Shown here one piece after another: positions 9,814-43,335 of a stretch of DNA of 64,000 nt. This DNA is from Natronobeatus ordinarius (GTDB taxonomy: Archaea > Halobacteriota > Halobacteria > Halobacteriales > Natrialbaceae): contig NZ_CP101457.1 of assembly GCF_024362485.1 (NCBI RefSeq), forward strand, positions 62,001 through 126,000. The letters run 5' to 3'. The position numbers were made by a program, and so were the translations under genes. Numbering within the stretch: the first letter of the stretch is position 1; every line of letters begins with the position of its first letter. Below the pieces are notes generated by a model. The model had not been told where the DNA came from and made no database searches. It saw only the letters and a program-made list of their open reading frames with translations.

Positions 9814-10341
9814 TTAGGCCGGAATCAAATGCCCGTCGTTCTGGGAGAGCTGGCGAGCAAGTTCGTACAGCCTGATATCCCGAATCACGCCCTGCCACTC
9901 GCTGACTGCGATCATCCGCTCGTGGATGTTTTCGTGATCACCGTGGTCAAACACGTTGACAGTCGTTGGGTCGGTCGTCTCGAACTGTGATTCGTATTCC
10001 GTCCGCTGCGTTTCAAGCGTCTCCACGCGGTCGATGATTGCTTCGATAGAGAGCTCGGTTGCAATCCGACTGGCGTCCTGCCATTCGAGATACCCCTCGT
10101 TTCGTTCGTATGTCGCTGGGCGGCTGTCTCTATCGGCTCGAGCGATACCCATCTCCGCTAAGCGATCGAGGTGCTTTTTCGCGGCGTTTGGAGAGCAGTC
10201 CGCAAGCTCAGCGATCTCGGTGTAGGCAGTCGGAGAGGTAACGCCGAGGACGACGTCGTAGACACGACCAAACGTGTCTGTCCCCGTCTGCCACCGGTGC
10301 TGAGTATCATCGGAGGTGGGGGCCGGATCGAACTCGGTCAT
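9814..10341 (-). CDS. Winged-helix antitoxin/repressor (DUF7342-like), partner of TumE
   Basis: 175 aa. Residues ~20-80 form a winged HTH (AYTEIAELADCSPNAAKKHL, DRLAEMGIARAD). A wing-and-linker region with YERNEGYLEW follows, then a coiled-coil helix (IIDRVETLETQRTEYES) and a helical C-terminus (WQGVIRDIRLYELARQLSQN). This is the likely DNA-binding antitoxin that autoregulates the pair. The start at 10341 is ~29 bp from a TATA-like box, which fits a leaderless transcript. Confidence 0.75.
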   Translation of the reverse strand: MTEFDPAPTSDDTQHRWQTGTDTFGRVYDVVLGVTSPTAYTEIAELADCSPNAAKKHLDRLAEMGIARADRDSRPATYERNEGYLEWQDASRIATELSIEAIIDRVETLETQRTEYESQFETTDPTTVNVFDHGDHENIHERMIAVSEWQGVIRDIRLYELARQLSQNDGHLIPA

Positions 10342-10365
10342 ACGTATCTGTAGGCGCCCACTCTC

Positions 10366-10373
10366 AATATATC
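10366..10373 (-). promoter_or_regulatory. TATA-like box of the TA pair
   Basis: GATATATT on the minus strand is centred ~29 bp upstream of the HTH start codon, the spacing of leaderless haloarchaeal promoters. Confidence 0.5.
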
Positions 10374-10441
10374 TTCGGGTTCTTCAAATATCTGAAAAAG
10401 GATTCTGTGTTGGGTTACTGGAAAGGCAGGGCCAGTCTTGT

Positions 10442-10546
10442 TCAATCACGTAGTATTGCGACTGCCTTTCCGACCTGCCGGACGTGTTCACTCCGCTCCA
10501 GATCTAACTCCTCGGCGAGAAAATCAACTGCCTCTGTGAGCGTCAT
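10442..10546 (-). CDS. Possible 34-residue protein
   Basis: From ATG at 10546 the frame reads MTLTEAVDFLAEELDLERSE and ends AVAILRD. It is acidic with an amphipathic helical pattern and high GC at codon third positions, so it looks coded rather than random. It could be a small protein or the N-terminal remnant of a longer one. It sits downstream of the TFB gene on the same strand. Confidence 0.4.
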   Translation of the reverse strand: MTLTEAVDFLAEELDLERSEHVRQVGKAVAILRD

Positions 10547-10598
10547 GGTTGAGTAACTCCTCTCTCAGAGTACGAAGCTGACGTCCTTAAAAACCGGC

Positions 10599-11528
10599 TC
10601 ACACCGCGTTGAGTTCGTCTCTCCGGGCACGAACTGTCACAGCTGACATCCCTGCAGCATCCGCAACTCTCTGCTGTGTGAGTGAGCTTCCGTATTCCTG
10701 TGCAGCTTTGTAAATGCAGGCCGCCGCGACGCCACTCGGACGACACCCGTTTGAAATAGCAGTTTCTCGATGGTGCTTTGAGAGTGCCACTGCTCGACGC
10801 CGGGTGGCGTCTGAAATGTTAAGTTCCGACGCGAGACGGGGGATGAATTCGCTTGGTCGAACAGGCTGGGTCGGCAGTCCAAGTTCTGTATTCAGCGTCT
10901 TGTACGCATTTGCGACTCTCGATTGTTCGACGCGTGCTGCGTCGACGACGTCGTCGAGTAACCGTGAGTGGCCGTTACATCGACAGGCTCCGTAGATGCT
11001 TGCTGCCGCTATCGCCTCGATTGATCGGCCTCGAAGCAGATCTTCGGTTTGAGCGCTCCGGAACAGTTGACACGCCTGATCCCGAACCGAATCTGAGAGC
11101 TCGAGGACGCTCGCGATTCTTCGGACCTCACCCAGGCCGTGTGCGAGGTTTCGCTCGGCTTTCGACTGGAAGCGACCACGAGTCTGTTCACGCCGCATCC
11201 GGGATAGCTGCTGGCGCTTTCGCCCGGAAAGTTCGTTCCCGTTCGCATCTTTCCACCGACCGATTTCCGTCGACAGCCCTCGGTCGTGACGTGCCGCAGT
11301 CAGTGGAGCGCCCGTCCGCTTTCGCTGGTCCTGATCGTGAGTTCTCCATTCAGGACCGTGGTCGATTCGTTGTTCGTCAATAACGAGTCCACAGTTCTCG
11401 CAGACTGTTTCGACCGAGTTGGTAGTGACCCGGCCATTGCACTCGGGACATGAGTTCGTGCTGGAGTTTGTCTGGACGTCCTCGTCGAAGCCCGTTTCGT
11501 AGATGTCTCTGGTTGCCATTGTTCTCAT
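10599..11528 (-). CDS. tfb: Transcription initiation factor IIB (TFB)
   Basis: 309 aa. The N-terminal zinc ribbon CPECNGRVTTNSVETVCENC is followed by the B-reader/linker region (GPEWRTHDQDQRKRTGAP). Then come two cyclin-like repeats: SIEAIAAASIYGACRCNGHS in the first and RPSGVAAACIYKAAQEYGSS in the second, the latter ending with a recognition-helix region (TQQRVADAAGMSAVTVRARR). TFB recruits RNA polymerase to TBP-bound promoters. Haloarchaea use many TFB paralogues for alternative programmes, so an element-borne copy could redirect transcription. The start at 11528 gives 41 nt to the leader hairpin; MATRD at 11519 is an alternative. Confidence 0.9.
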   Translation of the reverse strand: MRTMATRDIYETGFDEDVQTNSSTNSCPECNGRVTTNSVETVCENCGLVIDEQRIDHGPEWRTHDQDQRKRTGAPLTAARHDRGLSTEIGRWKDANGNELSGRKRQQLSRMRREQTRGRFQSKAERNLAHGLGEVRRIASVLELSDSVRDQACQLFRSAQTEDLLRGRSIEAIAAASIYGACRCNGHSRLLDDVVDAARVEQSRVANAYKTLNTELGLPTQPVRPSEFIPRLASELNISDATRRRAVALSKHHRETAISNGCRPSGVAAACIYKAAQEYGSSLTQQRVADAAGMSAVTVRARRDELNAV

Positions 11529-11552
11529 CGTGTTACGGGGAACCCACCAGTA

Positions 11553-11586
11553 CGGTGAGCCCCTCACCCATTGAGGGGGAGAATAA
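11553..11586 (-). promoter_or_regulatory. Conserved leader hairpin, copy 4 (tfb)
   Basis: On the gene strand it reads GTTTATTCTCCCCCTCAATG followed by GGTGAGGGGCTC. The stem is CCCCTCA / TGAGGGG. The spacing from GGGTGAGG to ATG 11528 is 41 nt. Finding the element before a general transcription factor ties this leader family to regulation of the accessory region. Confidence 0.65.
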
Positions 11587-14075: not shown

Positions 14076-17000
14076 ATGGTTGACCCGGTCTCTATCAGCG
14101 CCAGTATTATCGCTTCTTCTACAGCGAAACACCTCTATGGGAAAGGCAAGCGGATGCACTTCCTGAATGAAGCTGTAGAAAACGCAGCTTCTCACGTAGC
14201 GGAGAGTCACGAGGGCTTGGACGCTGACGTCTTTATCGCCATTTTCGAGGATGACCATGTTGTTGACCTCGTCGAAGAATTTGATGACGGAGGCGACTTG
14301 ATCACGCCTTCAGATATTGCGGAGTCGTTCAACGAAGACATGCTCGGCGAAGAGGTCGAAGCTACGCCAGAGGACCTCGTGAACGAGTTTCTGAATCAAC
14401 TGGAGGTGGAGATCAGTAAAAACCAGGAACTTGGTCACAAGCTGATCATGGACTATTCGCAGCGAATCCACCAGCACACAGAAGATCTAGAGGAAGGTCA
14501 AACGGAGATACTTCTTGAGATCCAGAGGATAGCGGGCCGACTTCCGACGGGCAAGAAATACAGGGTTTTTCAGCCGATTCCGGAACGATTCCGGGAACGG
14601 CTCAACGGAGAACATCCGCATGACAGGTACGACCTCCCGTTCTTCGGCCGGGAAAATGAACTGGACAAGATCACCGACTTCCCGAACTCCGGGGAAGACG
14701 TGCTCATTCTCGCCGGACGGGCCGGGATCGGGAAGACAAGACTCGTCGTTGAGGGCAGTCTACTATTAGAGGCCGAAAAAACGGACTGGCAGGTATACTG
14801 GACAGATATACACGCCGGAAACATCGATGACGGGCTGGAGGAACTCGAACTGGAGGACGAGCGGAACACTCTACTCTTCGTAGACGATGCCCGGAACGCG
14901 GACCAGATCAAGCGCCTGTTCGACCTCGCAGAACAGTATCAGCCCCATCTCAAACTCATATTTACAGAGAGACCGCATTTCATCTCCTCGCTACAAGATT
15001 ACGGCAACCGATTCAGTGATGTAGAGACGGAGACAGTCGAACTTCAGCCGTTGAACACGGAGGACGTCCACGAAATCTTACGAGAATATTACGGGGTTAC
15101 TCACCCGGCTACACTTGATCAGATCGTTTCGATAAGTGAGGGACTCCCTCTTTTCGCCCATCTCCTTGCGGAGCAGTTCTCCGGTGACGAACATACATCA
15201 GATCCTGTTGCCCAAGATGAATCACTTGAAGCCGTCTTCGAAGACGTTCTTTCCGACATCCAGAAATTGGGGGAGCAACAAGGAGTTGGCAATCCGCAGA
15301 AGCTGGAGACCTACGTCAAGTATCTTTCCGCCATCGGTGAACTGGACACGAACAATGAGGACCTGCTACAGCAGTTCAGAGAAGCTATATCGGTGGACAG
15401 GCCCACCGAGATCGAGCTAAGAGAAATACTAACTGAAAACATCGGACTCGTGGCCGAGCATTCGAACCGTCTAACTGTCCAGCCTGACGCGCTCCAAGAA
15501 TACATTGTCTACAACAGTTTCTTCTCCGACTCCCCACGCGACTACCAAGGCGAAATCTACGACAACTTCAGTGAGTTCACAGGAAAGAATCAGATCAACC
15601 AGCTAGCGATAATTCACCGACGCTACAACTGTAGAGAGGCCCGGAAAACGATTCGAGACGCTCTAAATACGGAGATAGAGAACATAGGCGAATACGGGTT
15701 CGCAAAAAGAGTCAGACTTCTTCGCCGGTTCAAGATTCTGGCGTCAACGCATCCCCATTACGCAATAGAACTCGTCAAAGCCGCACACCGGGAAGAACTA
15801 CCGGAAGACCCGGAAGAAGAACAGCTTTTCCGGAGCTCGATGTATACCGCTTCTCCAGCAGGCGATCTCATTATAGAGTCAACCGACCTGCTTTCCAACG
15901 CCTTACAGGGAGAGCCGGAAGACGCCACGTGGTGGCTGCTCTGGATTGCAGTCAATTATCCGCCTCAGTCACAGCTCCAAACCGGTAGCGCGGATCAAAA
16001 ACTACGGCAGGCACTGCGGCCAGGATTTAATAAATCTCCGGGTGCCCAGCAGAAGATTCTGGGAGTGGTCGGCGAACACTTCCTCTCGGGAGACCTCGAC
16101 GACGAACTCAGACTTGACCTGCTTGACGTCATCGGAGAGGTTTCAAGCACCGAAATACACGATTTCTCTGTCGACCCGATCAACCGTTCCCAGATGCGAT
16201 CCTGGCAGGGGAAAGTCCCTGTTACGGAGCCCTGGCTGGAACTCCGTGAACAAGCAGTCGCCCTTCTCATCGAGATAATCCAGGAAGATCCACACCCGGA
16301 GATACGGAAAACCGCTGCCGAGAAACTCGGGAGTTTCGAGAACTCGCAGGCCCGGTACTACGGCGAACATCAAGAAGTATTCAACCAGGAGGAACTGGCC
16401 CGAGTACTCGAATTCGCCGCTGAATACGTCTCCGAAAACGAGGACTTGCAATGTATCGATGCACTGAGCCGGTTAGCCGAGCGAGATAATGCGGATGAAC
16501 TTGGAATCGAAGAGGAAACCCAGGGACTCCAGGAAGAATTAGAGGACAACGAGCGGTACCAACTTCTTCAGCAAATGCGGCGCGGGGGGCCGAAAAAGAT
16601 GGAGGAATGGGAGGCTGAAATCCGGAGCTTCGCAGAAGGAATCGATGAAGAGGAACTCGAACCAGGCGACTTCAAGGATATTGTCGCAGGAATCCGGGAC
16701 TCCTCATTCAACCGGTTCTTCATGATACTGGCAGATGAGCGCCCGGACTTCGGCGAACAACTTCTCGAAGCAGATGATCCTGATCTCACACCCTGCAAAC
16801 CGCACGTCCTGATGGGGATATGCTCTGCTGACCCTGAGAAGGGAAAGGACTTCGTCAACCAGTATATCGAAAAAGAACGGTTCGGCCTAGCTCCAGCCGG
16901 TCTCCGGTCACTAGCCACAGAAGATCTAGACTACGTACAAGAGAAAATCGAGGAACTACTAGAGAACCAGTCTCCGTACTCTCCGGAACTTATCTCCGGT

Positions 17001-17843
17001 CTAAGTCAAGTTTTGAACGGGTACTGGGAAGACCACCAAGAATGGACAGAATCTGTGCTCAGCACGCTTCTACACGATGCAGAATCACTTGACTCACAGT
17101 CCGTGGAAATGGTGCTGCGTCCCCTCCCGTTACACAATGACGATTCAGAGAACGTAGATGGAGAAATTCTCGAAGAGGTGTTAGACTACACCGAGAAAAG
17201 AGAAAATCTAACCTCGGAACCACACAGCCTCCAACTCGTAATCGCGGAAATCGCTGAGCGAAACCCAGAACAGTTCGTCAACTTCACCCTCCAACGACTG
17301 GAAAACGAATACACCGGCGTCTCACTCCTACCGACACACCTAGATGTAGAAACAGACCGGATGAAAGAAGCGGACAGCTACGACGCCGCAGTAAACGAAG
17401 TCTGCCAACGAATTCTCGACACCGACTACTACACCCCTATGGCGTTTTCAGACCTCACCGCATGCTTTCCCATAGCTGATATTGCTGAACGACTCGTAGC
17501 AAGAATCCCAGATTGCTCTGAGGACCAGTTGCTCCAAGTCATCTGGTATTGCAAGTTCCTCCCCGTAACCGAGAACACAGAGAAAATCTACCGTAAAGTT
17601 GTGACCGAAGGCGTTGACGACATCCGAGATGCAGAATCCGTTTCAAGCGTGATTCATGGAGCTCTATACACAGACGCCCTCGCTACTCGGAGTCTGTCCG
17701 AGGTCAGCAAGAAGGAAGACGAGATAGAGATGCTCCGCGACTGGCAAGAAGACTCTTCACTCCCATCCTCTGTCCGACTGTTCGCCGAAGAAGCCGAAGA
17801 TCACCTCCTAGATAGTGTAGAACGTCAAGAAAAGATGTTTTGA
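14076..17843 (+). CDS. STAND-type P-loop NTPase with long helical-repeat C-terminus, candidate defence protein
   Basis: 1255 aa. Residues 1-170 are a helical N-terminal region with a small hydrophobic helix near the start (SISASIIASSTAKHLYGKGK) and FIAIFEDDHVVDLVEEFDDG. An FFGRENELDKI motif precedes the NTPase, as in many STAND proteins. Walker A is GRAGIGKTR (GKT at 219-221), Walker B is LLFVDD (266-271), and LIFTERPHF is the sensor-like segment. From ~480 to the end are helical repeats of HEAT/TPR-like character (LLIEIIQEDPHPEIRKTAAE). The architecture (N-terminal effector candidate, STAND switch, repeat sensor) fits antiviral or signalling ATPases. The base composition is AT-richer than its neighbours, suggesting separate acquisition. 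The effector type is not recognised. Confidence 0.8.
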   Translation: MVDPVSISASIIASSTAKHLYGKGKRMHFLNEAVENAASHVAESHEGLDADVFIAIFEDDHVVDLVEEFDDGGDLITPSDIAESFNEDMLGEEVEATPEDLVNEFLNQLEVEISKNQELGHKLIMDYSQRIHQHTEDLEEGQTEILLEIQRIAGRLPTGKKYRVFQPIPERFRERLNGEHPHDRYDLPFFGRENELDKITDFPNSGEDVLILAGRAGIGKTRLVVEGSLLLEAEKTDWQVYWTDIHAGNIDDGLEELELEDERNTLLFVDDARNADQIKRLFDLAEQYQPHLKLIFTERPHFISSLQDYGNRFSDVETETVELQPLNTEDVHEILREYYGVTHPATLDQIVSISEGLPLFAHLLAEQFSGDEHTSDPVAQDESLEAVFEDVLSDIQKLGEQQGVGNPQKLETYVKYLSAIGELDTNNEDLLQQFREAISVDRPTEIELREILTENIGLVAEHSNRLTVQPDALQEYIVYNSFFSDSPRDYQGEIYDNFSEFTGKNQINQLAIIHRRYNCREARKTIRDALNTEIENIGEYGFAKRVRLLRRFKILASTHPHYAIELVKAAHREELPEDPEEEQLFRSSMYTASPAGDLIIESTDLLSNALQGEPEDATWWLLWIAVNYPPQSQLQTGSADQKLRQALRPGFNKSPGAQQKILGVVGEHFLSGDLDDELRLDLLDVIGEVSSTEIHDFSVDPINRSQMRSWQGKVPVTEPWLELREQAVALLIEIIQEDPHPEIRKTAAEKLGSFENSQARYYGEHQEVFNQEELARVLEFAAEYVSENEDLQCIDALSRLAERDNADELGIEEETQGLQEELEDNERYQLLQQMRRGGPKKMEEWEAEIRSFAEGIDEEELEPGDFKDIVAGIRDSSFNRFFMILADERPDFGEQLLEADDPDLTPCKPHVLMGICSADPEKGKDFVNQYIEKERFGLAPAGLRSLATEDLDYVQEKIEELLENQSPYSPELISGLSQVLNGYWEDHQEWTESVLSTLLHDAESLDSQSVEMVLRPLPLHNDDSENVDGEILEEVLDYTEKRENLTSEPHSLQLVIAEIAERNPEQFVNFTLQRLENEYTGVSLLPTHLDVETDRMKEADSYDAAVNEVCQRILDTDYYTPMAFSDLTACFPIADIAERLVARIPDCSEDQLLQVIWYCKFLPVTENTEKIYRKVVTEGVDDIRDAESVSSVIHGALYTDALATRSLSEVSKKEDEIEMLRDWQEDSSLPSSVRLFAEEAEDHLLDSVERQEKMF

Positions 17844-19311: not shown

Positions 19312-19444
19312 GGTCGTGGCTGCGCGCGCAGCGAAGCGAGCACGGAGCGGAGGGTGGGGAGGTGGGGTCTGGGTCGGTCTGGCACGTAGCAAAAAAGAAG
19401 GCCGTGTACGCTGGCTATTCCCACCACCGTCCGCGCTCAGGGAA
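19312..19444. repeat. Direct repeat R2, overlapping the RPA gene 3' end
   Basis: Partner of R1 (13824-13958). Positions 19415-19444 are the last RPA codons and the rest is 3' flank. R2 contains the intact gene end, so it is likely the source copy and R1 the duplicate or recombination scar. Confidence 0.9.
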
Positions 19445-20311
19445 ATGCAGGGTCGACCACCCAGTGACGGCTAGTGAGACGCGTCCTTCGTACCAGTTCC
19501 GTGCTGCTCCGTGAATGCGCACATGTTCACCTTCCTTGATCCACGGGGCATTCGATTTCTCCCAGACCGTCACCTTAGTTTTCCCACTGTCGTCTTCGAT
19601 AAGCCCCACTTGGGAAATAGCTGAACTCGACGGCTCCCACAGCTGTGTCACAGTACCTTCGATGCTCACTTCTTTCCGATTGACGCCTTCGAGCATCCCG
19701 ATGGGGACCACCTGTCCCGGCGCCGTCTGCAACTCTTCGAAAACCCCGACGACTGCACTCATCAGGTCTTTTCCATCGACGACGGCTTCACCCATTCGCC
19801 GACCAATCGCTGCTCGCGACCAGCCATCCAGCTTCTCTGCCAGCCGCATTGACTGCTTGTTCACCGCCGCCAACTGCTCCTGCGTCAGTTCTGCACGAGG
19901 ATCGTCTCGGTCCGGATCCGCCCACGGGTTCACGCTCGCCGCCCGTTTCTGGAACTCAACACGTCGCTCAGCACTCTGCTTCGCTACGATATCTCGCGTC
20001 CGATTCTCCCGACCGTCTTGCATCCCCATCTCCGCCCTGGCACTGATGCGCTCCAGCTCCGCCTCTCGCGCCCGAATGCGCTCTTCCTGTTCAAGAGTCG
20101 CACCGTAGATCCGCTCTTCACTGGTGTCGACCATCCCGTCCGGGTGGTTCGCATCGACTTTCGCCTGCACCTCCATCTGCACCGTCGCCTGGAATTCCGG
20201 CGTCTCATCGACGACCTCGAAGCCATCTTCATCGACTTCCGCTTCGTCCGCTTTTTCGAATGCCTGTTCATCGACCGAAACTACTTCACTGGTAACGTTC
20301 TTACTTGACAT
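19415..20311 (-). CDS. RPA-like single-stranded DNA-binding protein (298 aa)
   Basis: An acidic N-terminus (MSSKNVTSEVVSVDEQAFEK) leads to a helical middle (ARAEMGMQDGRENRT, LAEKLDGWSRAAIGRRMGEA). A C-terminal OB fold follows: VSIEGTVTQLWEPSSSAISQ, VGLIEDDSGKTKVTVWEKSN, GEHVRIHGAARNWYEGRVSL. The OB fold would bind ssDNA during replication, repair or transfer. Single-OB RPA-like proteins of this size are common on haloarchaeal plasmids. Confidence 0.8.
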   Translation of the reverse strand: MSSKNVTSEVVSVDEQAFEKADEAEVDEDGFEVVDETPEFQATVQMEVQAKVDANHPDGMVDTSEERIYGATLEQEERIRAREAELERISARAEMGMQDGRENRTRDIVAKQSAERRVEFQKRAASVNPWADPDRDDPRAELTQEQLAAVNKQSMRLAEKLDGWSRAAIGRRMGEAVVDGKDLMSAVVGVFEELQTAPGQVVPIGMLEGVNRKEVSIEGTVTQLWEPSSSAISQVGLIEDDSGKTKVTVWEKSNAPWIKEGEHVRIHGAARNWYEGRVSLAVTGWSTLHFPERGRWWE

Positions 20312-20738
20312 TGGATCTCACTGATCCGAAGGCGCTCAGCGCCCGACACCGCGATGCTCCTACATCGCGGTTTTCCGACGACAACGACCGACAGAACCAT
20401 CTGTACGCTCTCGCTCGCGCCTTCGTGAGCGCCCCTTGGGGCGCGAGCGAGAGCGTCTCGGGGAGGCCATCCAACCAGAGCCGCGCGCCGACCCGCCCGG
20501 AGCGAGCGGCCAGCTTTAAGCCGTTTCTCGCGTCCGGCCCGGACTGCGGGTCCGTGTCCAGCGCGACGGTCGTGAGCACGGCGAGTCGTGGCATGACTCG
20601 CCGCGTGGAGCGGCCCAAAGTGCTGGAACGCGAAAGCCCGCGAGGGGCGCAACCGAAAACGCGCTTAATGCTGGCGTCGAGACCAGATTCATTTCAGCCC
20701 GGAACGGCGAGCTTGCTCGCCGCATGCCCGGAATGGTC
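20312..20738. other. GC-rich, hairpin-rich non-coding region
   Basis: Frames here are Arg/Ser/Pro-rich and not coding-like. Several perfect palindromes stand out. One has 16 bp arms, ACGCTCTCGCTCGCGC (20405-20420) and its complement (20441-20456). Another is CGGCGAGTC/GACTCGCCG (about 20579-20603), and a third is CGGCGAGC-TT-GCTCGCCG (about 20706-20723). The region could hold structured RNA or a replication or termination site. It lies directly 5' of the RPA gene. Confidence 0.55.
20405..20456. repeat. Perfect inverted repeat, 16 bp arms
   Basis: ACGCTCTCGCTCGCGC and GCGCGAGCGAGAGCGT flank a 20-base loop. Neither arm is followed by a T-run, so it is not an ordinary terminator. Confidence 0.85.
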
Positions 20739-20965
20739 GGTCGCGAGCGATGCGGAGGGCGGAAGCGGCGAGCGGGGCGTGCCGTAATAAAGAACCTGTT
20801 CAACCGGGTTCGACGCTCAGTGAGACAGCCGATATCCTGGTGGACTCAGAAAGGGCGAGGCTGTCTCGGTCGTCCCCCGACTCCGCAAGCACCGCAGGTA
20901 CGAGGAGCGCAGCGTGGGTCGCGGGATGCCGAGCGGCCGAGGGCTTTCGAGACAGTAACGGCCAT
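20739..20965. repeat. Long imperfect direct repeat, left copy (flanks PIN/HTH pair)
   Basis: It shares blocks with 22197-22490: GCGAGCGAYGCGG, AGCGGYGAGCGGGGCG, GTTCAACCGG, CAGCCGATA, CTCAGAAAGGGC, CTCGGTCGTCCC and the ending GGCCGAGGGCTTTC. GAAAGGGC near the middle and GAGGGCTTTC at the end could pair, so the unit may fold into one large stem. No protein-like reading frame. Confidence 0.75.
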
Positions 20966-21030
20966 CGCTGGCGGGCTGATATCGAATTTTGCTCCGCAGT
21001 GGCCGGTGTGCGGACCTAACGAGGAGCGGC

Positions 21031-21531
21031 CTACTCGAGAAGATCTTCGACGAAGCGGAAGCCGTTCACGTATGTGACTGAATCGCCGTAGCCCTCACTG
21101 GCGAAGACATTTTCAGCCCCTTCTCCAGCGAGGGTATCCGTCGTGTAGATGTAAGCGTGGTCAGCGGTCTCGTCGACGAACGCTTGAGCGGCGACCCCTG
21201 CCAGCGCTGGATCCGCACGTTCGATCTCGTCGGCAGGGCGGTCATCAGCGTTCGCGATGTATCGCTGTACGCCGTCCATCGTCCGGGAGACTAGTGCGTT
21301 CGTGTATCCCAACGGGGCTGCGACTCGGGCCCACCCTTCGTCGATTGCCGTGTCGACCGGCGGTGTCTCGACGTCGGGCGCGTTGACGGTCAGTTCGTCG
21401 TAGACACGTTCCGGGAGGACGAACGTCATGTCGTTCCGGCGTGCAAACGTTCGGACGACCTGATACCGACGGTTCGACGGTTTCCCCATCGCGACGAACA
21501 GACCGGTATCAGCGATATGGATGGCGCTCAC
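21031..21531 (-). CDS. PIN-like ribonuclease toxin (166 aa)
   Basis: The N-terminus MSAIHIADTGLFVAMGKPSN carries the first acidic residue of a PIN fold (IADTG). An acidic residue in LPERVYDEL follows, and later AYIYTTDTLAGEG gives the C-terminal acidic pair. PIN domains are Mg-dependent RNases, usually VapC-type toxins. The gene overlaps the 3' end of the HTH gene upstream by four bases (ATGA), an antitoxin-toxin layout. Confidence 0.75.
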   Translation of the reverse strand: MSAIHIADTGLFVAMGKPSNRRYQVVRTFARRNDMTFVLPERVYDELTVNAPDVETPPVDTAIDEGWARVAAPLGYTNALVSRTMDGVQRYIANADDRPADEIERADPALAGVAAQAFVDETADHAYIYTTDTLAGEGAENVFASEGYGDSVTYVNGFRFVEDLLE

Positions 21532-22130
21532 GCGTTGTCGCCAGCGATGTCCCGGTCGACAACCTCGATATCCGCGACCGACGCGCCCGCCTCCTCGATA
21601 TCGAAGTGCTCGTGGACGACGGGGCGAAGCGCCTGCAGGATGATCTCGGCGGCGAGCGGCGAGATGTCGAGATCACGGGCCATCAGCCGGTGGGTGACCT
21701 CGCCACGTTCCCGGTCGACGGTGTAGGTGAGTGCCGTTGCGAGTCCGGCGATGCCGTGGCGGTCGATGTAGGTATCGATGTCGTCGTCGGTCGTGCGACG
21801 GGCGATGGCGTCGATGAGCGCGGGCGTAATCGTGTACTCGCGAGCGTCATCAGCTGCTGTGACGGTCAGATTGATGTCGCGAGCGACGTACACCCGGGGT
21901 TGCTCGTCGGTGGTCGCCTCGATGACGCCGGCGTCGACCAGCCGGTTCACATAGGTGTAGGCCGTTCCCTGTGCGAGGTCGAGTTCGTTCATGAGTTCCT
22001 GAACGGTTGCTTCCTCCTCTCGGGCGAGATACGCGTACAGCTGGGCGAGCTGTGGCTCCTCGAGGAGGTCCGCGACCGAGAGGAAGTCGCGGATGACGTC
22101 GCCGTCGGTTCGGTTTGAGGTGCGTGACAT
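21528..22130 (-). CDS. HTH antitoxin/regulator partner of the PIN protein
   Basis: 200 aa. Winged HTH at about residues 20-75: AQLYAYLAREEEATVQELMN, then LDLAQGTAYTYVNRLVDAGV. The C-terminal half (ITPALIDAIARRTTDDDIDT, LATALTYTVDRERGEVTH) matches haloarchaeal PIN-associated regulators (DUF7437 type, as I recall). A direct repeat of GTTTACA at 22144-22157 upstream may be its operator. A degraded copy of its 5' end lies at 25222-25301. Confidence 0.75.
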   Translation of the reverse strand: MSRTSNRTDGDVIRDFLSVADLLEEPQLAQLYAYLAREEEATVQELMNELDLAQGTAYTYVNRLVDAGVIEATTDEQPRVYVARDINLTVTAADDAREYTITPALIDAIARRTTDDDIDTYIDRHGIAGLATALTYTVDRERGEVTHRLMARDLDISPLAAEIILQALRPVVHEHFDIEEAGASVADIEVVDRDIAGDNA

Positions 22131-22141
22131 GGGCAATTGAG

Positions 22142-22158
22142 TGTTTACAGTTTACAGC
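22142..22158 (-). promoter_or_regulatory. Possible operator of the PIN/HTH pair
   Basis: TGTTTACAGTTTACAG contains two adjacent copies of GTTTACA just upstream of the HTH start, where an autoregulatory antitoxin would bind. Confidence 0.35.
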
Positions 22159-22196
22159 GAATCAATAAAGAGTGTTGCGGTCAATCTATCTCGACT

Positions 22197-22490
22197 AGGT
22201 GCGAGCGACGCGGCGGGTGGCAGCGGTGAGCGGGGCGGGCCGCAGAGAAACACGGTTCAACCGGACTTGACATGCAGTGACTCAGCCGATAGCCTGGCGG
22301 GCTCAGAAAGGGCAAGGCTGACTCGGTCGTCCCTCGACCCCGTAAACACCGAGTGAAAAGAGGCGCGCAGCGGGAGCAAGCGAGACGGAGTCTCGAGTGG
22401 TCGAGGGATACCGAGCAATGGGAGAGCAAACCTCTTCCGAGCTAACGGGCGGCGTCGCCGCCCGAGAACGGCCGAGGGCTTTCTATCTGT
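22197..22490. repeat. Long imperfect direct repeat, right copy
   Basis: Diverged, longer copy of 20739-20965, in the same orientation. It includes an extra GGGCGGCG-TCG-CCGCCC hairpin (about 22446-22464) before the shared GGCCGAGGGCTTTC end. The two copies enclose the PIN/HTH pair. Confidence 0.75.
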
Positions 22491-22686
22491 TCTCGGCCAC
22501 CGCCTGCAGTCTCGACGTAAGCATTATCCTGCACCGACGCGAAAGTTATCTATGCACCACACACCGCCGGTGCAACAGGTGAACGTGCGGACGATGAGCG
22601 CTTGCTCTGTTCTTTCATAGGTGGTCGCGGCGCCGACGGGTGTATCGCCTTCTCATCGAGCAGCGACGCCGCTTTCACCGATACAA

Positions 22687-23763
22687 ATGCAAACCACCGA
22701 GTACGAACTCCGCGATCGAATCGATCAGCTCAGAAACTACCGTGGCGAGGGCACCGAACTCATCACCGTAGCCGTTCCGCCAGACAAATCACTCCATGCA
22801 GTCCGCGAGCGCATCGATCGCGAATATGCACAGGCTGCGAACATCAAATCTGATCAGACACGAACCCACGTCCAGGATGCTCTTGGACGCATCCGACGCC
22901 TTCTGCAAGCGTACGAAGAAACGCCACAAAGCGGCCTCATCATCTACGCTGGTGTCGTCGACGGTGAGCTGCACGACGCCGTCTTCGACGATCTCGACGT
23001 CCCCGTCGACGTCTCACTGTACCGCTGTGCGGCTGAATTCGAGACCGCCCCCGTCGAGCAGGCGCTCTCCCCGTCAGAGGTGTACGGTCTGGTTGTCCTC
23101 GAACGGGGCCGTGCCGCTCTCGGCCGCCTCGCCGGCAAACGCATCGTTTCCATCCGGACGTTCGAGAGCCAGGTGATGGGGAAATCCCGTGCGGGCGGTC
23201 AGAGTGCGCAGCGTTTCGAACGTGAGCGGGATCGCCAGAAACACGAGTTCTTCGAGAAGGTTGCCGACGCTGCCGAACAGACATTCCTCGACGAGCCTAC
23301 TGTCGATGGCATTCTCCTCGGCGGCACGACGATTACCGTCGACGAGTTCCAGCAGGGTGGCTATCTCCACTACGAGTTGCGGGACCGCATACTGGGCGTG
23401 TATCCGATTGAGTACGCGACTAAACAGGGCCTCTCGCAGCTCGTTGCGCGTTCCGAGGACGTACTGTCTGATGCTGAGCGCCGACGGGAACGAGAGTTTC
23501 TCGATCGGTTCTTCACGGCGCTGGGGCAGCGTGAAGATGTCGCCTACGGAGCTGAGGAAACGCGAACCGCCCTCGACTACGGGGCGGTCGACGTCCTCAT
23601 CGTTTCTGACGCACGACCATCAGCAGAGATTCGTGAATTGGAGGCAGTGACGACCGACCAAGGCGGTGAGTGTCTCGTTGTGTCGACTGACACAGACCGA
23701 GGTGCCCAGTTCGATACTGCATTCGGGGGTCTTGGAGCGCTCCTCCGGTTTCCGATCAACTAA
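22687..23763 (+). CDS. aRF1-like peptide release factor paralogue
   Basis: 358 aa from ATG 22687. It retains the codon-recognition NIKS motif (ANIKSDQTRTHVQDAL, NIKS at 52-55) and the YxCxxxF motif (YRCAAEF, 112-118). It also retains the GGQ peptidyl-tRNA hydrolysis motif (AGGQSAQRF, GGQ at 170-172). The C-domain matches aRF1 (AFGGLGALLRF) but lacks the Cys-rich mini-domain, so it is ~50 residues shorter than housekeeping aRF1. It could end translation at stop codons or rescue stalled ribosomes, for example after cutting by the adjacent PIN RNase. Upstream sequence to 22621 is open but not coding-like. Confidence 0.85.
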   Translation: MQTTEYELRDRIDQLRNYRGEGTELITVAVPPDKSLHAVRERIDREYAQAANIKSDQTRTHVQDALGRIRRLLQAYEETPQSGLIIYAGVVDGELHDAVFDDLDVPVDVSLYRCAAEFETAPVEQALSPSEVYGLVVLERGRAALGRLAGKRIVSIRTFESQVMGKSRAGGQSAQRFERERDRQKHEFFEKVADAAEQTFLDEPTVDGILLGGTTITVDEFQQGGYLHYELRDRILGVYPIEYATKQGLSQLVARSEDVLSDAERRREREFLDRFFTALGQREDVAYGAEETRTALDYGAVDVLIVSDARPSAEIRELEAVTTDQGGECLVVSTDTDRGAQFDTAFGGLGALLRFPIN

Positions 23764-26831: not shown

Positions 26832-27230
26832 TCAGTTGCGACGAGCACACGCTCGGAAGTAAATCACTGCGGTTTCAGTGTCGACAGCGGCTTCATCGGT
26901 CGCAAAGCGGTGCAGTAAGGCCCGAATTTCGTCGCCGTAGTCGAACGTGTGTCCGTTCAGCATGTAGAAGACAACCACCGTTCGGAGTGCAGTCCGCTTG
27001 TTCCCGTCGACGAAGGGATGATCTGCAACGAGAAGACGCATCAGATGCACCGCTTTTTCATGCAGTGTCTGTGGAACCTCTCCAAAGTATCCTTCAGAGA
27101 CGTACTGCACTGCAGATTCGATTGCGTCCTCCGATCGAATTCCGGGTTCTGTGGCGTCACCTTCTTCAACGATCTGCTCGTGGAGATCGAGAACGAGCTC
27201 GACCGAAGGATACGCGACGTCGTCAGTCAC
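26832..27230 (-). CDS. doc: Doc/Fic-family toxin (death-on-curing)
   Basis: 132 aa. Carries the Fic/Doc signature HPFVDGNKRTALRTVVVF (HxFxxGNKRTA), with PSVELVLDLHEQIVEEG at the N-terminus as in Doc. Doc proteins phosphorylate EF-Tu in bacteria; the archaeal target is not established. Full length for the family, with the catalytic His, the phosphate-binding GNK and the Arg all present. Downstream of the likely antitoxin gene. Confidence 0.85.
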   Translation of the reverse strand: MTDDVAYPSVELVLDLHEQIVEEGDATEPGIRSEDAIESAVQYVSEGYFGEVPQTLHEKAVHLMRLLVADHPFVDGNKRTALRTVVVFYMLNGHTFDYGDEIRALLHRFATDEAAVDTETAVIYFRACARRN

Positions 27231-37310: not shown

Positions 37311-38822
37311 CTAGAACTCTCCCCCCGTAGATTCAGCCTCATCTAGTTGGCCGTACATCTCATCGGGAAATGGGAGACTTCCCCAGATGGAGTATGGGCA
37401 CTTCTCCTGCCCGATGCAGTACCGCTGCATATCGTCGTTGTCGCAGTTCATCGGAAGCGGGGTGTCGCCTCCGATCGTGTTCGAGAACTCGTAGCGAATC
37501 TGGTAGTCGGTGACCTGTTCATCGTACCATGGCCACCGCGAGAAGACGCTCTTGAGATCCCCGACAATCGTCTCGAGGTCGCTGTCCTGATACTGTGGCA
37601 GCCACATCACCATCCGGGCGAAGTTGTACAGGTCTTTTCGGACTGGTTTCTTCTCGTGGAGGCGTTCGGCCATGTTCGCCATACAGGGGAGTTCAAACAG
37701 GTCTTCGATTGACTCGACGGTGAGTGGCTGGACGCCTCGCGAAGACTCCTGAATCCGATAGTGGTTCGTATTTCCGTGCCGTCGGATAGTGAGGCTTCGG
37801 TGGTCGCGCTGGGATGCAAGGAGATTCCCAAGACTCCGAGGACTAGAGATACGATTACACACGTCCCGCTTCCAGTCCGCTTCCGGATCGTACGCCTCCA
37901 CTGCTTCAAACAGCTCCTTCCCCGAGTGGAACTTCCCCAGTGTGGTGACTTCGTCTGGTGCGTCTCGAATTGCGTCCCGTAGCACACGGATGGTTCGCTC
38001 ACCGGGGTTCCAGTCTCGCCAGATTCGTTCGTGGTGTCCTGTCTCGATGAAGCGGTCGATGCGCTCTGTGATGGCCGATTCATTCGTTGTTAGCCACGTG
38101 AGCTGGTCTCCGGAGAGGTTCTCTTCTTGGACTCGCAGGAGCTTTTTGAACGCGCGTCTGGCGTACTCGCGATACTTCGTATCGAAATCGCCGACTGGTA
38201 CGTAGAGGTGGTTGTTCTTAACGCGAGTGAGCAGTTCCCCAGCCTCTCCTGTCTCAGTGTCGGCGTGAACGAGGCAGTTCCTCGACGCCGCAGCTATCGG
38301 GATTTCGAGGTACAACCCACCACCGAACTCGGGCATTTCTTTGACTCCCGTACAAACACGACCGGGGTGCGGACCATCCTCTCCGGGGGCTTTCGCGTAC
38401 AGCACCTCTGCTATATCCTGTTGGAGACTCCCATCACCGAATTCTCGAAGGAGGGAAGCGAGATTATTGACGTACAACTCTCGAATATCGTAGAGAACCT
38501 GCACCTTTCGCGGTGGGGCGTGCTCGAACTTCGGGTGTGCCTTGACGCAGATCGCGCTCAACGTCGCGAGGACGGCGAGTGTTCCCGGTTCGTCGACGAA
38601 CGGTTCCTCCGCAGCGTTTGTCCTGACGTTTTCTTTGAACGCCGCCGTTCCGAACCGTTCGAGGTCGTTCAGCAGATCTGCTGGTTGATCTTCGCCGTCG
38701 ACGATGTAGCGATTGTAGCCCCGCGTGAACAGCTGGTTGATCCGCGTCGTGCCGTATTCCAGCGGGAGCGCCGCAACGCGATAGGCGGTACGCTCGTCCT
38801 TGACAGGCGTCGACTGAGTCAT
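37311..38822 (-). CDS. PriL-like primase large subunit (503 aa)
   Basis: The C-terminal domain matches the Fe-S domain of archaeal/eukaryotic PriL: FELPCMANMAERLHEKK (first Cys), YDEQVTDYQIRYEF (the T-x-YQ block), then PLPMNCDNDDMQRYC and GQEKCPYS (three more Cys), giving four Cys for a 4Fe-4S cluster. The N-terminal half is helical (TTRINQLFTRGYNRYI). Its start overlaps the PriS-like stop by four bases. It is the last gene of the transfer operon. Confidence 0.8.
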   Translation of the reverse strand: MTQSTPVKDERTAYRVAALPLEYGTTRINQLFTRGYNRYIVDGEDQPADLLNDLERFGTAAFKENVRTNAAEEPFVDEPGTLAVLATLSAICVKAHPKFEHAPPRKVQVLYDIRELYVNNLASLLREFGDGSLQQDIAEVLYAKAPGEDGPHPGRVCTGVKEMPEFGGGLYLEIPIAAASRNCLVHADTETGEAGELLTRVKNNHLYVPVGDFDTKYREYARRAFKKLLRVQEENLSGDQLTWLTTNESAITERIDRFIETGHHERIWRDWNPGERTIRVLRDAIRDAPDEVTTLGKFHSGKELFEAVEAYDPEADWKRDVCNRISSPRSLGNLLASQRDHRSLTIRRHGNTNHYRIQESSRGVQPLTVESIEDLFELPCMANMAERLHEKKPVRKDLYNFARMVMWLPQYQDSDLETIVGDLKSVFSRWPWYDEQVTDYQIRYEFSNTIGGDTPLPMNCDNDDMQRYCIGQEKCPYSIWGSLPFPDEMYGQLDEAESTGGEF

Positions 38823-39703
38823 GACTGGAGCACCTCCGGTGTCGCAGACCGAACGTCGAAGTCCGGGCTCTCGATCGGCGTGACGATACTACAGACGTCA
38901 GCGTGCAACGAGTAGGGTAGCCGGGCGACCCTCCGACGATCGGCGGTAACCACGGGATCGATGGGTATCTCGTAGGTGTCTTGCAGAAGGTCGTTCAGCA
39001 CTTCTCGACTCTTGGCGTCGTACCGATGAGCGGGATCAGTATCGAGGAGATAGACGTGAACGCCCTGGCCGCTGTACACTACCATCGTGTCTTCGGCGTT
39101 GAAGTCGTCCTCGAAGATCTCTCGCACCTCGAAGCCGTACTCGATGGCCCGTTCGATATCCTCGAAAGAATACGGGTAGCCTGCTGGGTCTGCTTCGAGA
39201 ATTCCCGCGGTATCGAGCAGCTCCTCGCTATCCCCCATAGATTCCTCATCCAATATCGCTTGCGCTGCCCGTTTTCGGGCTATCGTTTTCGCGTCGATAT
39301 CGACGAGGAGCACCCACGGCCGTTCCCAGTGATCGAGGGCGTAGTAGACCGCATCAGGACACGGGTCTGGTTTGTCAAGCAAGTTGGGATCTGCGAGCGC
39401 GAAGTCACTCCGATCGAGTGGATCGTTTCGTGCTGGATGGCGGATGAACTCGAGGACGTCGTCGAAGTCGTGGAACGCCGCCGTGATCCGCTCACCTGAG
39501 ACGTTCGTCTGCCACGTATCTCGCCGAATGAAGTCCTTGTCTGGGACTCCATCTTTCCGGACCGGGTGGGGGTCTCGAAACGCAAGCGCGTACTGTTTCG
39601 GCCCCTTGGCTGTGATGAACGACGGGAGTTCGTCACGGTACGAGGGGAACTCTTCGGTGTAGTACCTGTAGATCTCTTCGCGAGTCGCCTGACGCCACGT
39701 CAT
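38819..39703 (-). CDS. PriS-like archaeo-eukaryotic primase catalytic subunit (294 aa)
   Basis: Catalytic motifs in order: PWVLLVDIDAKT (DID at 135-137, metal-binding), MVVYSGQGVHVYLLD (210-221, corresponding to the SGRGxH motif of PriS) and IDPVVTADRRRVARLPYSLH (D-x-R-x-LP-x-SLH). The N-terminal IYRYYTEEFPSYRDELP also fits PriS. It would synthesise RNA or DNA primers with its PriL partner. It overlaps both neighbours by four bases (ATGA), including the coupling-protein gene, so primase and transfer proteins are translated together. Confidence 0.85.
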   Translation of the reverse strand: MTWRQATREEIYRYYTEEFPSYRDELPSFITAKGPKQYALAFRDPHPVRKDGVPDKDFIRRDTWQTNVSGERITAAFHDFDDVLEFIRHPARNDPLDRSDFALADPNLLDKPDPCPDAVYYALDHWERPWVLLVDIDAKTIARKRAAQAILDEESMGDSEELLDTAGILEADPAGYPYSFEDIERAIEYGFEVREIFEDDFNAEDTMVVYSGQGVHVYLLDTDPAHRYDAKSREVLNDLLQDTYEIPIDPVVTADRRRVARLPYSLHADVCSIVTPIESPDFDVRSATPEVLQS

Positions 39704-42700
39704 GAATTGAACTCCTGATCGAGTTTGTTGAAGCTCCGAATCGTCGTCAGCCCAGCTGCATCGAACGATTCAACGGCCTCTCGAATGTCGGAGAACGATC
39801 GGGCTGCACGGCCGCTCACACTGCTTTCGATTCGGTCGGCCTCTGCGAGATGGTCTAATACCTCGACGGCGGTCTCGCGTCTGTTGAACGCCCAGACAAC
39901 GTTTGCGTCCACCCGACTCTGCTTGTCGTAGTCGTCGACCGGAGCGTGTTTGTTATTACTCGCGAGTTCGGCTTCACCGACCCACACGAGTTCTCCGTCA
40001 GCATCGAGACCGGCAACGTCGAACACCGTCTCCTCATCGTACTCGTAGTAAGATTCGACCTTCTCGACATCGTCGCGGGCTTCTAACCACAGTTCGAGCA
40101 GCTTCACACCGACCTTGTGCGGCGTCTTCTCACCGATATCTCCCTGACCAGGGCCGACCTTGAGCTTCTGGCCGAGCAGTTCGCGCCCTGCTGGGAGAAC
40201 GGTATAGTACTTCCGACCGCATGCTCGTCCTTCCTCCAGCAGGTCTTGATCGACGAGCCGTTGCACGTCCAGGTCGTCAAAGTCGTTCTTGAACGCACTC
40301 ATCGAATCCAAGAGTGTGTGGTCCGGGGCGTCACCATTCATCACGTCGAGGATGCGAGTCAGGAATCGGATGTCGTCGTGAGTGAGCCCGCGCTGTCGAA
40401 GCTCGTCATCTGGGACGGTTACACCACCAGCCTGTACTGGCGACTGTAATGGCGACGATCCGTTCTCGTCAACAGCTGTTTCCTCTTTTTCACCGACTAG
40501 TTCTCTCGACGCAGTTGACTCGGAATCTCCAAACAGTAAGTTGGTGGTGCCCGCTTCTTTTTCTCCCTCTTCGTCAGCTGCTGAACCACTGGTTGCCTGT
40601 CCGATGAACGACGACTGCGTCGAGTCCACAGGGCTAGCCGATTCTGCGGATGTCGACAGTACATCGATTGATCTACTTCCCCATCCTTCATTGTCGGCTG
40701 CCTCCGATTCGCCTGGGGCCTCAGCAAGCCCGTACTGGGTCTGTGTTCGCTCCGACAGCCGAGGGAGAGCCACGGTCTCGAAGTGATCCTCTTGTTCGGC
40801 AGAGAGCGGCTCGTCGCTCTCTGGATGGCCGGCTGCTATCGGGAGCGGCTTTACCGAGAACGGGGCTGGACCCGTCTCCCCGAATGACGGGCTCGGGAGT
40901 TGCGCGATCCACTCCCCGCTGGGGAGCGTGTTGATCCGATTTCGGAGGTCAGTCGGGCTCAGGTCTTCGTGGGCCAGCGACTCGGCGAGCGCGCGTTCGA
41001 TGGAGATGTTCCCGATGAGCTTCGTTTTGATATTGTTAAGGACCTCGTCGTAGGCACGCTCGCTTCGATTCCTGACCTGTCCGGGGAACTGCATCACCAG
41101 TCCCATGCTCAGGCCGAACGACCGACCTTGGGGAAGCAGCTGCTCGGAAACGAGTTTCGTCGAGGCGACGGGGGCTGCCTCCTCGATGATGAGGTTGGTG
41201 AGATTCTCGTAGTCTGTCTTCCCATCACGTCGACGAACCCGCACTGCGTCCCAGAGGTTACTCAACAGGAGGAGTGTAATTGCTCGCTGAGCCTCCGGGC
41301 GGAGATCACCCAAGTCGAACAAGATCGTGGCATCTTCGTCGAGGAACTCACAGAAGTCGAATCGGTTGTCGACGTAGTCGCCGTTATCCCCCTGTTCCGG
41401 AACGTGACTGAAGATACGTCGCAGGTGCGCGTCCTCTCTAAGTTTGTCGAGGCGGTTCCCAACGGCGTCCATCGACACCTGGAATTGTCGGTCATCTTTC
41501 TCAAAGTGGCGCGTAAGCGACTCCTCGACATTTTGGTTCTCGGCAGCGACAGGAGGGACTGTCCGCTCGCGTTGCATCTGGAGTGCAGCCGCAAAGAGAT
41601 CATCGAGGCCGAAGGCGTCACTACCGTATTCCTCGTCGAAGAGCGCCTTGATGAGGTAGCTGAGAATCTCGTTGGCGACGAACGCCTGTTCGTACTTTTT
41701 ACGACCCATGACCATCCGCATGATGTCGTGGAAGTGATCGACCTTGTCTTGGATCGCATCTTCGCGCCTCCACCCCGCTTCAAGTGTCGAACGAATATCG
41801 AAGAAAGAGAAAGCAGGGAGGGTTTCGGGAACGCAGAACTGATAGGTGTTGTCCAATCCGTTGAATCGGTCATAGTGACAGCGAAGATAGTTCGCACACA
41901 TTCCATCGCCTTTCGGATCGACGATAATAACCGGCCCACCCGTCCTCTCCCTGAGAGACAGCGCATCATTGATGATTGCTTTCGACTTTCCGCCCCCAGT
42001 TGATGCAAACCTGCCGTAGTGTCTCGTTAAGAGATTTGGCGGAATCCGTACCGGATCTGGTTGGATCGTACTATTTTCATCAAGTGCATATCCGATCGCC
42101 ATCCCTTCACGAAACTGTGCCATCAAATCGGGATTCGGTCGTGGCAGTGGATTGCGACTGCGCTGCTCTGAACGCGCACCTCGAGAGCCCTCAACAGTCA
42201 AATCATCGGCGCTCGGGACAACAACCATGTTTGCGAGTTCGTCCGCATTGAACACGAAATCTGGCCGCTTCTTCCCGCTACCAGCGATCATCTCTCCGTT
42301 GAGAACTCGCTCGAGATGGCGTTGACCTCGTTTGGCTTTCTGCCGATCGAGGAATCCTTTCTCTCGGATACGCCGTCCGTAGAGTTCGTAAAACGGACCG
42401 TCGAGTGGATGGAGTGCTGCCTTCAGCTGCTCGAGTTCTGCGCGGATCTCAACATCGCCGCCAGGAGCCATTGCAACGGCTCGAGCATTGACGGTGAACG
42501 TTCGACGTGGGTGTTTGCCGTCGATTCTCTGAATACGGTTTTTTGTCTCCTGAGACAGCTCTCGATCTGCAGGATCTGCATCGACAGGCTCGAGCCATGA
42601 GCCGATGAGGTCCTCGGCCCAAGTATCGCGTCCCTCTTTGAGGTCCATTTTTCGGATTTCAGCATCATCCCGCCAATCAGGTTTGCGCTGCCAGAGAATC

Positions 42701-43335
42701 TGATAGACAGTTGGTGCGGTCATCTCATGGAGGACCTCAACAACGGCCGAAAGCGGAGGTTGCTCTGATTCATATTCTTCATCGGGTTCGTCGACGACAA
42801 ACGGCGCGATGGTCGTCATCCAGTCTTCTTTGCGGCCAGTTTTACCGAGCCACTCGACCCCCAGTGGTGAGGGCTTCGGGGTTTCGTCTTCTATTTCACC
42901 TTCATCGAAACCTTCCAAATCACTCTCTCCCGTATCAGTTCGAGGATTCTCTCGATTCAACGCTCCCTGTTCCTCAGACTCGAGATCTTCCCTCGCCAAG
43001 TCGGGTTCAGGTGTGAGAACCGCCTCGAGATCGAGTTCCGTTCGCATAACCGTGAACGTGGTCGGGTAAATCGACCGGAGGCGCTTTTCAAGCGTGTTGA
43101 GGTGTTCTTCCTGGTTGACCCCGTAGTAGAACTCTACTGGTGCATCAGGACCTGCAGAGACGGCGAGGAATTCGAACGTTGGTGGAGCTGTGTCCACTCT
43201 GGGCCTCACCCGGTTCCAGAAACTCTCTGCCGCTGGGTTCGACAGTTTATGAAGACTCTCAAGAGCGGCTGGAATATCCGACCGACGGAGTGGTCCCGAC
43301 GTCGGAGTCACTTTCAGATACTCGTTGTTACTCAT
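39700..43335 (-). CDS. VirD4/TraG-like coupling ATPase (1211 aa)
   Basis: From ATG 43335 (MSNNEYLKVTPTSGPLRRSD). Walker A FASTGGGKSKA lies near residue 446, with VIIVDPKGDG just after it. Walker B is NLIIEEAAPV, with FGLSMGLVMQFPGQV after it. These match the TraG/VirD4/HerA type. About 440 N-terminal residues precede the ATPase. The C-terminal ~350 residues include an acidic disordered stretch, a winged-helix-like region (LTHDDIRFLTRILDVMNGD) and a nuclease-like or restriction-like fold (VFDVAGLDADGELVWVGEAE). The long C-terminus is not usual for VirD4. It would bring substrate DNA to the transfer channel. Confidence 0.8.
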   Translation of the reverse strand: MSNNEYLKVTPTSGPLRRSDIPAALESLHKLSNPAAESFWNRVRPRVDTAPPTFEFLAVSAGPDAPVEFYYGVNQEEHLNTLEKRLRSIYPTTFTVMRTELDLEAVLTPEPDLAREDLESEEQGALNRENPRTDTGESDLEGFDEGEIEDETPKPSPLGVEWLGKTGRKEDWMTTIAPFVVDEPDEEYESEQPPLSAVVEVLHEMTAPTVYQILWQRKPDWRDDAEIRKMDLKEGRDTWAEDLIGSWLEPVDADPADRELSQETKNRIQRIDGKHPRRTFTVNARAVAMAPGGDVEIRAELEQLKAALHPLDGPFYELYGRRIREKGFLDRQKAKRGQRHLERVLNGEMIAGSGKKRPDFVFNADELANMVVVPSADDLTVEGSRGARSEQRSRNPLPRPNPDLMAQFREGMAIGYALDENSTIQPDPVRIPPNLLTRHYGRFASTGGGKSKAIINDALSLRERTGGPVIIVDPKGDGMCANYLRCHYDRFNGLDNTYQFCVPETLPAFSFFDIRSTLEAGWRREDAIQDKVDHFHDIMRMVMGRKKYEQAFVANEILSYLIKALFDEEYGSDAFGLDDLFAAALQMQRERTVPPVAAENQNVEESLTRHFEKDDRQFQVSMDAVGNRLDKLREDAHLRRIFSHVPEQGDNGDYVDNRFDFCEFLDEDATILFDLGDLRPEAQRAITLLLLSNLWDAVRVRRRDGKTDYENLTNLIIEEAAPVASTKLVSEQLLPQGRSFGLSMGLVMQFPGQVRNRSERAYDEVLNNIKTKLIGNISIERALAESLAHEDLSPTDLRNRINTLPSGEWIAQLPSPSFGETGPAPFSVKPLPIAAGHPESDEPLSAEQEDHFETVALPRLSERTQTQYGLAEAPGESEAADNEGWGSRSIDVLSTSAESASPVDSTQSSFIGQATSGSAADEEGEKEAGTTNLLFGDSESTASRELVGEKEETAVDENGSSPLQSPVQAGGVTVPDDELRQRGLTHDDIRFLTRILDVMNGDAPDHTLLDSMSAFKNDFDDLDVQRLVDQDLLEEGRACGRKYYTVLPAGRELLGQKLKVGPGQGDIGEKTPHKVGVKLLELWLEARDDVEKVESYYEYDEETVFDVAGLDADGELVWVGEAELASNNKHAPVDDYDKQSRVDANVVWAFNRRETAVEVLDHLAEADRIESSVSGRAARSFSDIREAVESFDAAGLTTIRSFNKLDQEFNS

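Follow-up and report, generated by a model that had tools for sequence, protein, structure and literature searches.

A plasmid of the haloarchaeon Natronobeatus ordinarius carries a short paralogue of the archaeal release factor aRF1, and this gene probably encodes a working class-1 release factor of the archaeal/eukaryotic type, carried as accessory single-gene cargo for reserve or substitute termination. Archaea cannot do without a class-1 release factor and normally have just one, so that it is unusual for an intact one to spread as plasmid cargo. The gene lies in a stretch of 64,000 nucleotides (NCBI RefSeq assembly GCF_024362485.1, contig NZ_CP101457.1, positions 62,001 to 126,000 of the forward strand; hereafter the window), part of a 133,578-bp contig (G000:C2) beside the 4.08-Mb chromosome; we take the contig for a plasmid, as those most closely related to it are complete plasmids and a plasmid replication/transfer block is present. 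The sequence of the gene is intact, its ancestry is separate from that of housekeeping aRF1, it is under purifying selection and has spread horizontally, and early-branching relatives stand as the sole intact aRF1 of their genomes.

The open reading frame begins with ATG and ends with TAA (Table 1), exactly where an earlier note, made from the letters of the window, had placed it, and the frame stays open upstream to a GTG at 22621, which would give 380 aa. The protein consists of an N domain (residues ~1-131), an M domain with GGQ at 170-172, and a C domain (~263-358) without the zinc mini-domain; it has no CxxC and no mini-domain insert, both of which are found in the 419-aa aRF1 of the host. 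NIKS occupies residues 52-55 and is followed by D56, so that the site reads NIKSD instead of NIKSK. YRCAAEF (112-118) represents the YxCxxxF motif, GTE is also intact, and the catalytic loop, GKSRAGGQSAQRF, is of the classical GGQ type. The profile TIGR03676 (aRF1_eRF1) matched the protein with 328.8 bits (cut-off 234.7, E 4e-98), and Pfam eRF1_1, eRF1_2 and eRF1_3 all exceeded their cut-offs. Reading frame, profiles and alignment thus bear out the earlier note, which had described a second aRF1 with NIKS, YxCxxxF, GGQ, NIKSD and no mini-domain. It had also called the gene element-borne; the paralogue does lie on a 133.6-kb plasmid, and the host has an ordinary chromosomal aRF1 too (G000:C1:1003809; 555.7 bits), to which the plasmid protein is 40.5% identical. 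GTE, E46, NIKSD, R59, YRCAAEF and GKSRAGGQSAQRFER were invariant in all ten aligned rows of the plasmid clade, and the GILRY site was ALLRF in nine of them. Among 13 genes of this clade the ratio of nonsynonymous to synonymous substitution rates (dN/dS) was 0.128 overall, lowest in the M domain with GGQ (0.09) and somewhat higher in the N (0.13) and C (0.18) domains, which argues that the frame did not arise by chance.

In the plasmid collection, nine plasmids encoded proteins with 90-95% identity; their hosts are Natrialbaceae AArc-T1-2, Halomicrobium, Haloferax (two), Natrinema, Haloprofundus, Halobellus, Halostella and Salinibaculum. Further copies were found on genome contigs of Halegenticoccus, Halorubrum and Halobellus captivus (91-92%) and of HArc-gm2 (81%), and the Haladaptatus group showed 51-61%. 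The plasmid subclade spans at least 10 genera and occurs in 11 of the 391 genomes of the order, all 11 of which also have an intact full-length housekeeping aRF1; more distant short paralogues (39-50% identity), mostly chromosomal, are carried by about 50 of the 391. Between hosts the plasmid-clade proteins are 91.6-95% identical, whereas the housekeeping aRF1s of the same families are 77-88% identical, and this better conservation across families points to recent transfer. A viral origin was rejected, as no match was found in 50,697 phage records or IMG/VR. Judging from the sequences compared, the plasmid gene is functional, under purifying selection and horizontally spread.

In a tree of 78 rows (IQ-TREE, LG+C20), all short haloarchaeal aRF1s form a single clade (support 100/100) that is sister to housekeeping haloarchaeal aRF1. 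Forcing the window clade into housekeeping aRF1 was rejected (approximately unbiased test, p-AU 7.6e-7), as was forcing L139 there (p-AU 1.8e-6); the window protein therefore does not cluster with the housekeeping orthologues, in line with the separate paralogue that the earlier note had supposed. The outcome that the note gave as refuting it, a place among ordinary chromosomal orthologues in a host with no further copy, was not observed. Within the short clade, L139 (genome G131), L091 (genome G257) and L084 branch first, and after them come a Haladaptatus-like group, the plasmid clade and chromosomal group B. Support is weak (81/55) for how the plasmid clade relates to the Haladaptatus group, and L139, L091 and L084 have long branches that make their exact positions less sure. 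Housekeeping aRF1 has NIKSK, YHC and GGQ; L139 and L091 have NIKSK, YxC and GGQ and no mini-domain; the plasmid and Haladaptatus groups have NIKSD, YRC and GGQ; group B has QLDEQ or similar at the NIKS site and has lost the cysteine of YxC, with GGQ retained; and group C, whose GGQ-less members nest inside group B, has neither NIKS nor GGQ. By these motifs the short clade grades from termination factors to likely rescue or regulatory factors, running within one order from a sole release factor with NIKSK and GGQ, through an accessory factor with NIKSD and GGQ, to members in which NIKS is lost and GGQ kept and finally both are lost. This natural series makes it testable how termination factors become rescue or regulatory factors.

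The plasmid clade stands on the stop-reading side of the series, because NIKS, YRC and GGQ are retained. A rescue factor, which would release peptides without a stop codon on stalled or non-stop ribosomes, e.g. after cleavage of mRNA or tRNA by a PIN or other toxin, has been considered, as rescue in conflicts has often drawn on paralogous RF-PHs (PMC6514570), and the sister group B, with GGQ but no NIKS or YxC, looks as rescue would predict. Toxin modules are also often nearby: PIN in the window, VapC in Haladaptatus, MazF/PemK in Haloferax mediterranei, and a nucleotidyltransferase + DUF86 pair in Halobellus. These toxins are, however, mutually unrelated, there is a plasmid on which the PIN module stands by itself, and the stop-reading residues are all retained and invariant in the plasmid clade. 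Because the stop-reading motifs are all kept here and were lost by the sister chromosomal paralogues, rescue, which the earlier note had offered beside specialised termination, is less likely than codon-dependent termination, and we regard it as unlikely. Behind the chromosomal NIKS-less group B factor there is often a small gene that starts with MCATFSDDDVGKPV or similar (L039-L042, L049); by eye it is PRC-barrel-like, a possible partner of that factor.

Two relatives speak for short aRF1s being able to act as complete release factors. G131 (98% complete) has a short aRF1 (342 bits) and no other, and in G257 (96% complete) the short aRF1 is the only GGQ protein found and the only intact aRF1. 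The canonical locus of G257, beside argS and syntenic with sister genomes, holds a 288-aa remnant with DIES for NIKS, YRRDTTF (no YxC) and the M domain deleted. In this one draft genome, an essential translation factor has apparently been replaced naturally by its paralogue. The missing mini-domain, in which the earlier note had seen a sign of specialisation, is no proof of it, because sole aRF1s of other archaeal families (~365-390 aa) also skip the mini-domain profile positions and the mini-domain is not conserved among archaeal aRF1s (PMC4081094).

Several points weigh against a working termination factor on the plasmid. The predicted structure is poor (mean predicted local distance difference test score, pLDDT, 58.5) and lends no support. 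The two genomes with a sole short factor are single drafts, and their factors keep NIKSK and are only 38-44% identical to the plasmid protein, so that the sufficiency they speak for is that of the NIKSK form rather than of the NIKSD branch. The residue after NIKS is D and not K/R, and affinity or codon range may therefore be different, because R65, its equivalent in human eRF1, lies close to h34 and has a strong effect on ribosome binding (PMC3950680). A shift of specificity towards only some stop codons by NIKSD and mini-domain loss, which would help plasmid genes, nevertheless seems very improbable, as the stop-discriminating residues are unchanged and the stops on plAArc-T1-2-S are not skewed (TGA 28, TAA 18, TAG 17, i.e. 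17 of 63 for TAG), with no TAG depletion near the gene.

For accessory termination we propose the normal class-1 cycle, following established aRF1 biology. The N domain would read stop codons in the ribosomal A site via GTx, the E55-equivalent, NIKS and YxCxxxF, over a presumed range of stop codons; host aEF1-alpha would probably deliver the factor through the M and C domains; and the GGQ loop would then hydrolyse the peptidyl-tRNA bond. Carried on haloarchaeal megaplasmids as cargo at a hot spot by an OB-fold gene, additional to host aRF1, it would most likely serve as a reserve or substitute if the host factor is limiting, inhibited or ill-matched to the needs of the plasmid. More speculatively, it might be a mobile counter-conflict release factor, whose altered contacts with the small-subunit head (at NIKS+1 and the mini-domain, both near h33/h34 in eRF1) would keep termination going if host aRF1, or the site it binds, were disabled by a defence system, a toxin or a rival element; on this view the short-aRF1 lineage has taken over from the essential factor, or been added to it, on more than one occasion. 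The eRF1 mini-domain does contact h33/h34 (PMC3950680), but we consider this idea quite unlikely.

The cassette that carries the gene consists of this one gene and a strongly conserved leader, the final 120 bp of which are almost invariant among plasmids. A search of Rfam gave nothing significant. The usual neighbour of the aRF1 gene, the divergent OB-fold gene, known in other annotations as replication factor A or DNA-binding protein, was found on 195 plasmids, most of them without aRF1; the structure prediction of the OB protein had low confidence and was not used. In all OB plasmids examined, the stretch upstream of this gene stops at GAGCGGCCGAGGGCTTTC or a near variant, and past this junction the content varies: the aRF1 leader and gene, the helix-turn-helix (HTH)-PIN pair, or other genes. 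The hot-spot junction was seen in L064-L067 and L167-L173, with a variant form on Halobacterium pNRC100. The aRF1 cassette of Halegenticoccus (L050) also starts at this junction but has no OB stretch before it, and in Halobellus ramosii ~7 kb separate the OB gene from aRF1. Imperfect direct repeats (82-86%) of the OB-upstream stretch at 20743-20894 and 22201-22351 look like traces of cassette assembly. An exchangeable-cargo hot spot would also suit a redundant, dosage-neutral hitchhiker spread by plasmid linkage only, as would the frameshifted copies, three in Haladaptatus pallidirubidus (L061-L063, ~9989-11062) and one in HArc-gm2 (L060, ~10001-11105); with purifying selection (dN/dS ~0.13) and an almost invariant leader across many genera, however, such a passenger is highly unlikely. 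Recoding at the early stops of the H. pallidirubidus copies was rejected, as these are frameshifts and the copies hence pseudogenes.

The PIN gene that the earlier note had linked to aRF1 is indeed adjacent in the window, but a functional link did not hold up. Each of the two cassettes has its own copy of the junction in front, and the PIN/HTH segment (20986-22426) recurs with 96.9% identity over 1441 bp at the hot spot of a Natronorubrum bangense plasmid that has no aRF1 there; because of these two observations, the adjacency is read from the sequence as a tandem of independent cargo. It is private to this plasmid among the aRF1 plasmids compared, the others having no PIN there, and a PIN-aRF1 functional module was rejected. 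The PIN-like protein had no Pfam or NCBIfam match.

Table 1 Features of the aRF1 cassette region in the window and of the aRF1 loci of G257
Feature	Coordinates	Strand	Basis
OB-fold nucleic-acid-binding plasmid gene, 298 aa, usual neighbour	19415..20311	-	domain match, neighbourhood comparison
Conserved non-coding stretch upstream of OB-fold gene, ends exactly at junction	20312..20948	.	alignment
Second junction copy (CGGCCGAGGGCTTTC), before PIN/HTH cassette	20934..20948	+	junction comparison
PIN-like protein, 166 aa, separate cargo cassette	21031..21531	-	PIN by reading of sequence
Winged-helix regulator with DUF7437, 202 aa, same PIN cassette	21528..22136	-	Pfam; overlaps PIN gene
Cassette junction CGGCCGAGGGCTTTC before aRF1 leader	22469..22483	+	junction comparison
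Conserved non-coding leader, aRF1-cassette-specific	22484..22686	+	alignment, junction comparison
Short aRF1 paralogue coding sequence, 358 aa	22687..23763	+	open reading frame translation, domain and motif profiles, dN/dS
Degenerate canonical aRF1, G257:C15	L158 2228-3094	-	M domain deleted, NIKS to DIES
Intact short aRF1, G257:C14	L159 3333-4595	+	

Two genes with in-frame TAG codons had also been noted earlier in this region, but two scans gave no case on a coding strand; the only TAG-joined frames were antisense to real genes (one opposite parA) or were two neighbouring reading frames. With ordinary stop usage as well, TAG recoding was rejected, and no tRNA, suppressor or other, was found within the 64-kb window. 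Elsewhere in the window, 37311-45466 (- strand) encodes a primase-associated protein, a PriS-like primase, a HerA-like ATPase and a VirB4-like ATPase, a replication and conjugation-like block that is conserved among haloarchaeal plasmids. The plasmid's own transcription factor B lies at 10599-11567 (-), and the plasmid thus encodes both a transcription initiation factor and a translation termination factor. A large STAND NTPase with HEAT repeats (1255 aa, 14076-17843, +) is a possible defence protein, and a Fic/Doc-family toxin gene (26832-27230, -) is close to the aRF1 cassette. PADLOC gave no defence match for aRF1 or the PIN protein.

At NCBI the plasmid copies already bear the name prf1, and no paper on aRF1 paralogues of haloarchaea or plasmids turned up in the paper library searched. 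With TIGR03676 above its cut-off, GTx, NIKS and YxCxxxF invariant in the clade and GGQ present, the protein is a class-1 release factor by family; lying outside the chromosomal clade and without the zinc mini-domain, it is not a housekeeping haloarchaeal aRF1. It shares with archaeal aRF1 (PDB 4AF1, the best match, and Aeropyrum pernix 3AGK/3VMF) the three domains, NIKS, YxCxxxF and GGQ, and the A. pernix factor (373 aa) is also without the C-domain insert, PMC3521657 mentioning a C-terminal deletion in it; the plasmid protein differs as a plasmid-borne, accessory paralogue with NIKSD outside the housekeeping haloarchaeal clade. Pelota/Dom34 has related M and C domains, but its profile scored 70.8 against a cut-off of 177.65 bits, and Pelota has no GGQ and a different N domain; this identity was rejected, and the host has a separate, weaker pelota-like match on the chromosome (G000:C1:4021607). 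VLRF1 and baeRF are likewise extra aeRF1-superfamily paralogues beside the main factor (PMC6514570), and acVLRF1 matches in the M domain; the curated NCBIfam profile of acVLRF1 stayed below its cut-off (65.8 vs 125 bits). The plasmid protein keeps all three domains, NIKS and the classical GGQ loop, not the GGxSQ or GxuQ that PMC6514570 gives for Vms1-like VLRF1, and both identities were rejected, baeRF_family10 reaching 59.5 bits against 103 for eRF1_2. The Mimivirus R726 class-I release factor (PMC3521657) is likewise an eRF1/aRF1-type factor on a genetic parasite besides the host factor, and both have NIKS, YxCxxxF, GGQ and the C-domain deletion. The plasmid gene, however, has no internal stop or frameshift regulation and is carried by an archaeal plasmid, not a virus; its short clade is sister to haloarchaeal aRF1, whereas the viral factors group in a branch by themselves (PMC3521657).
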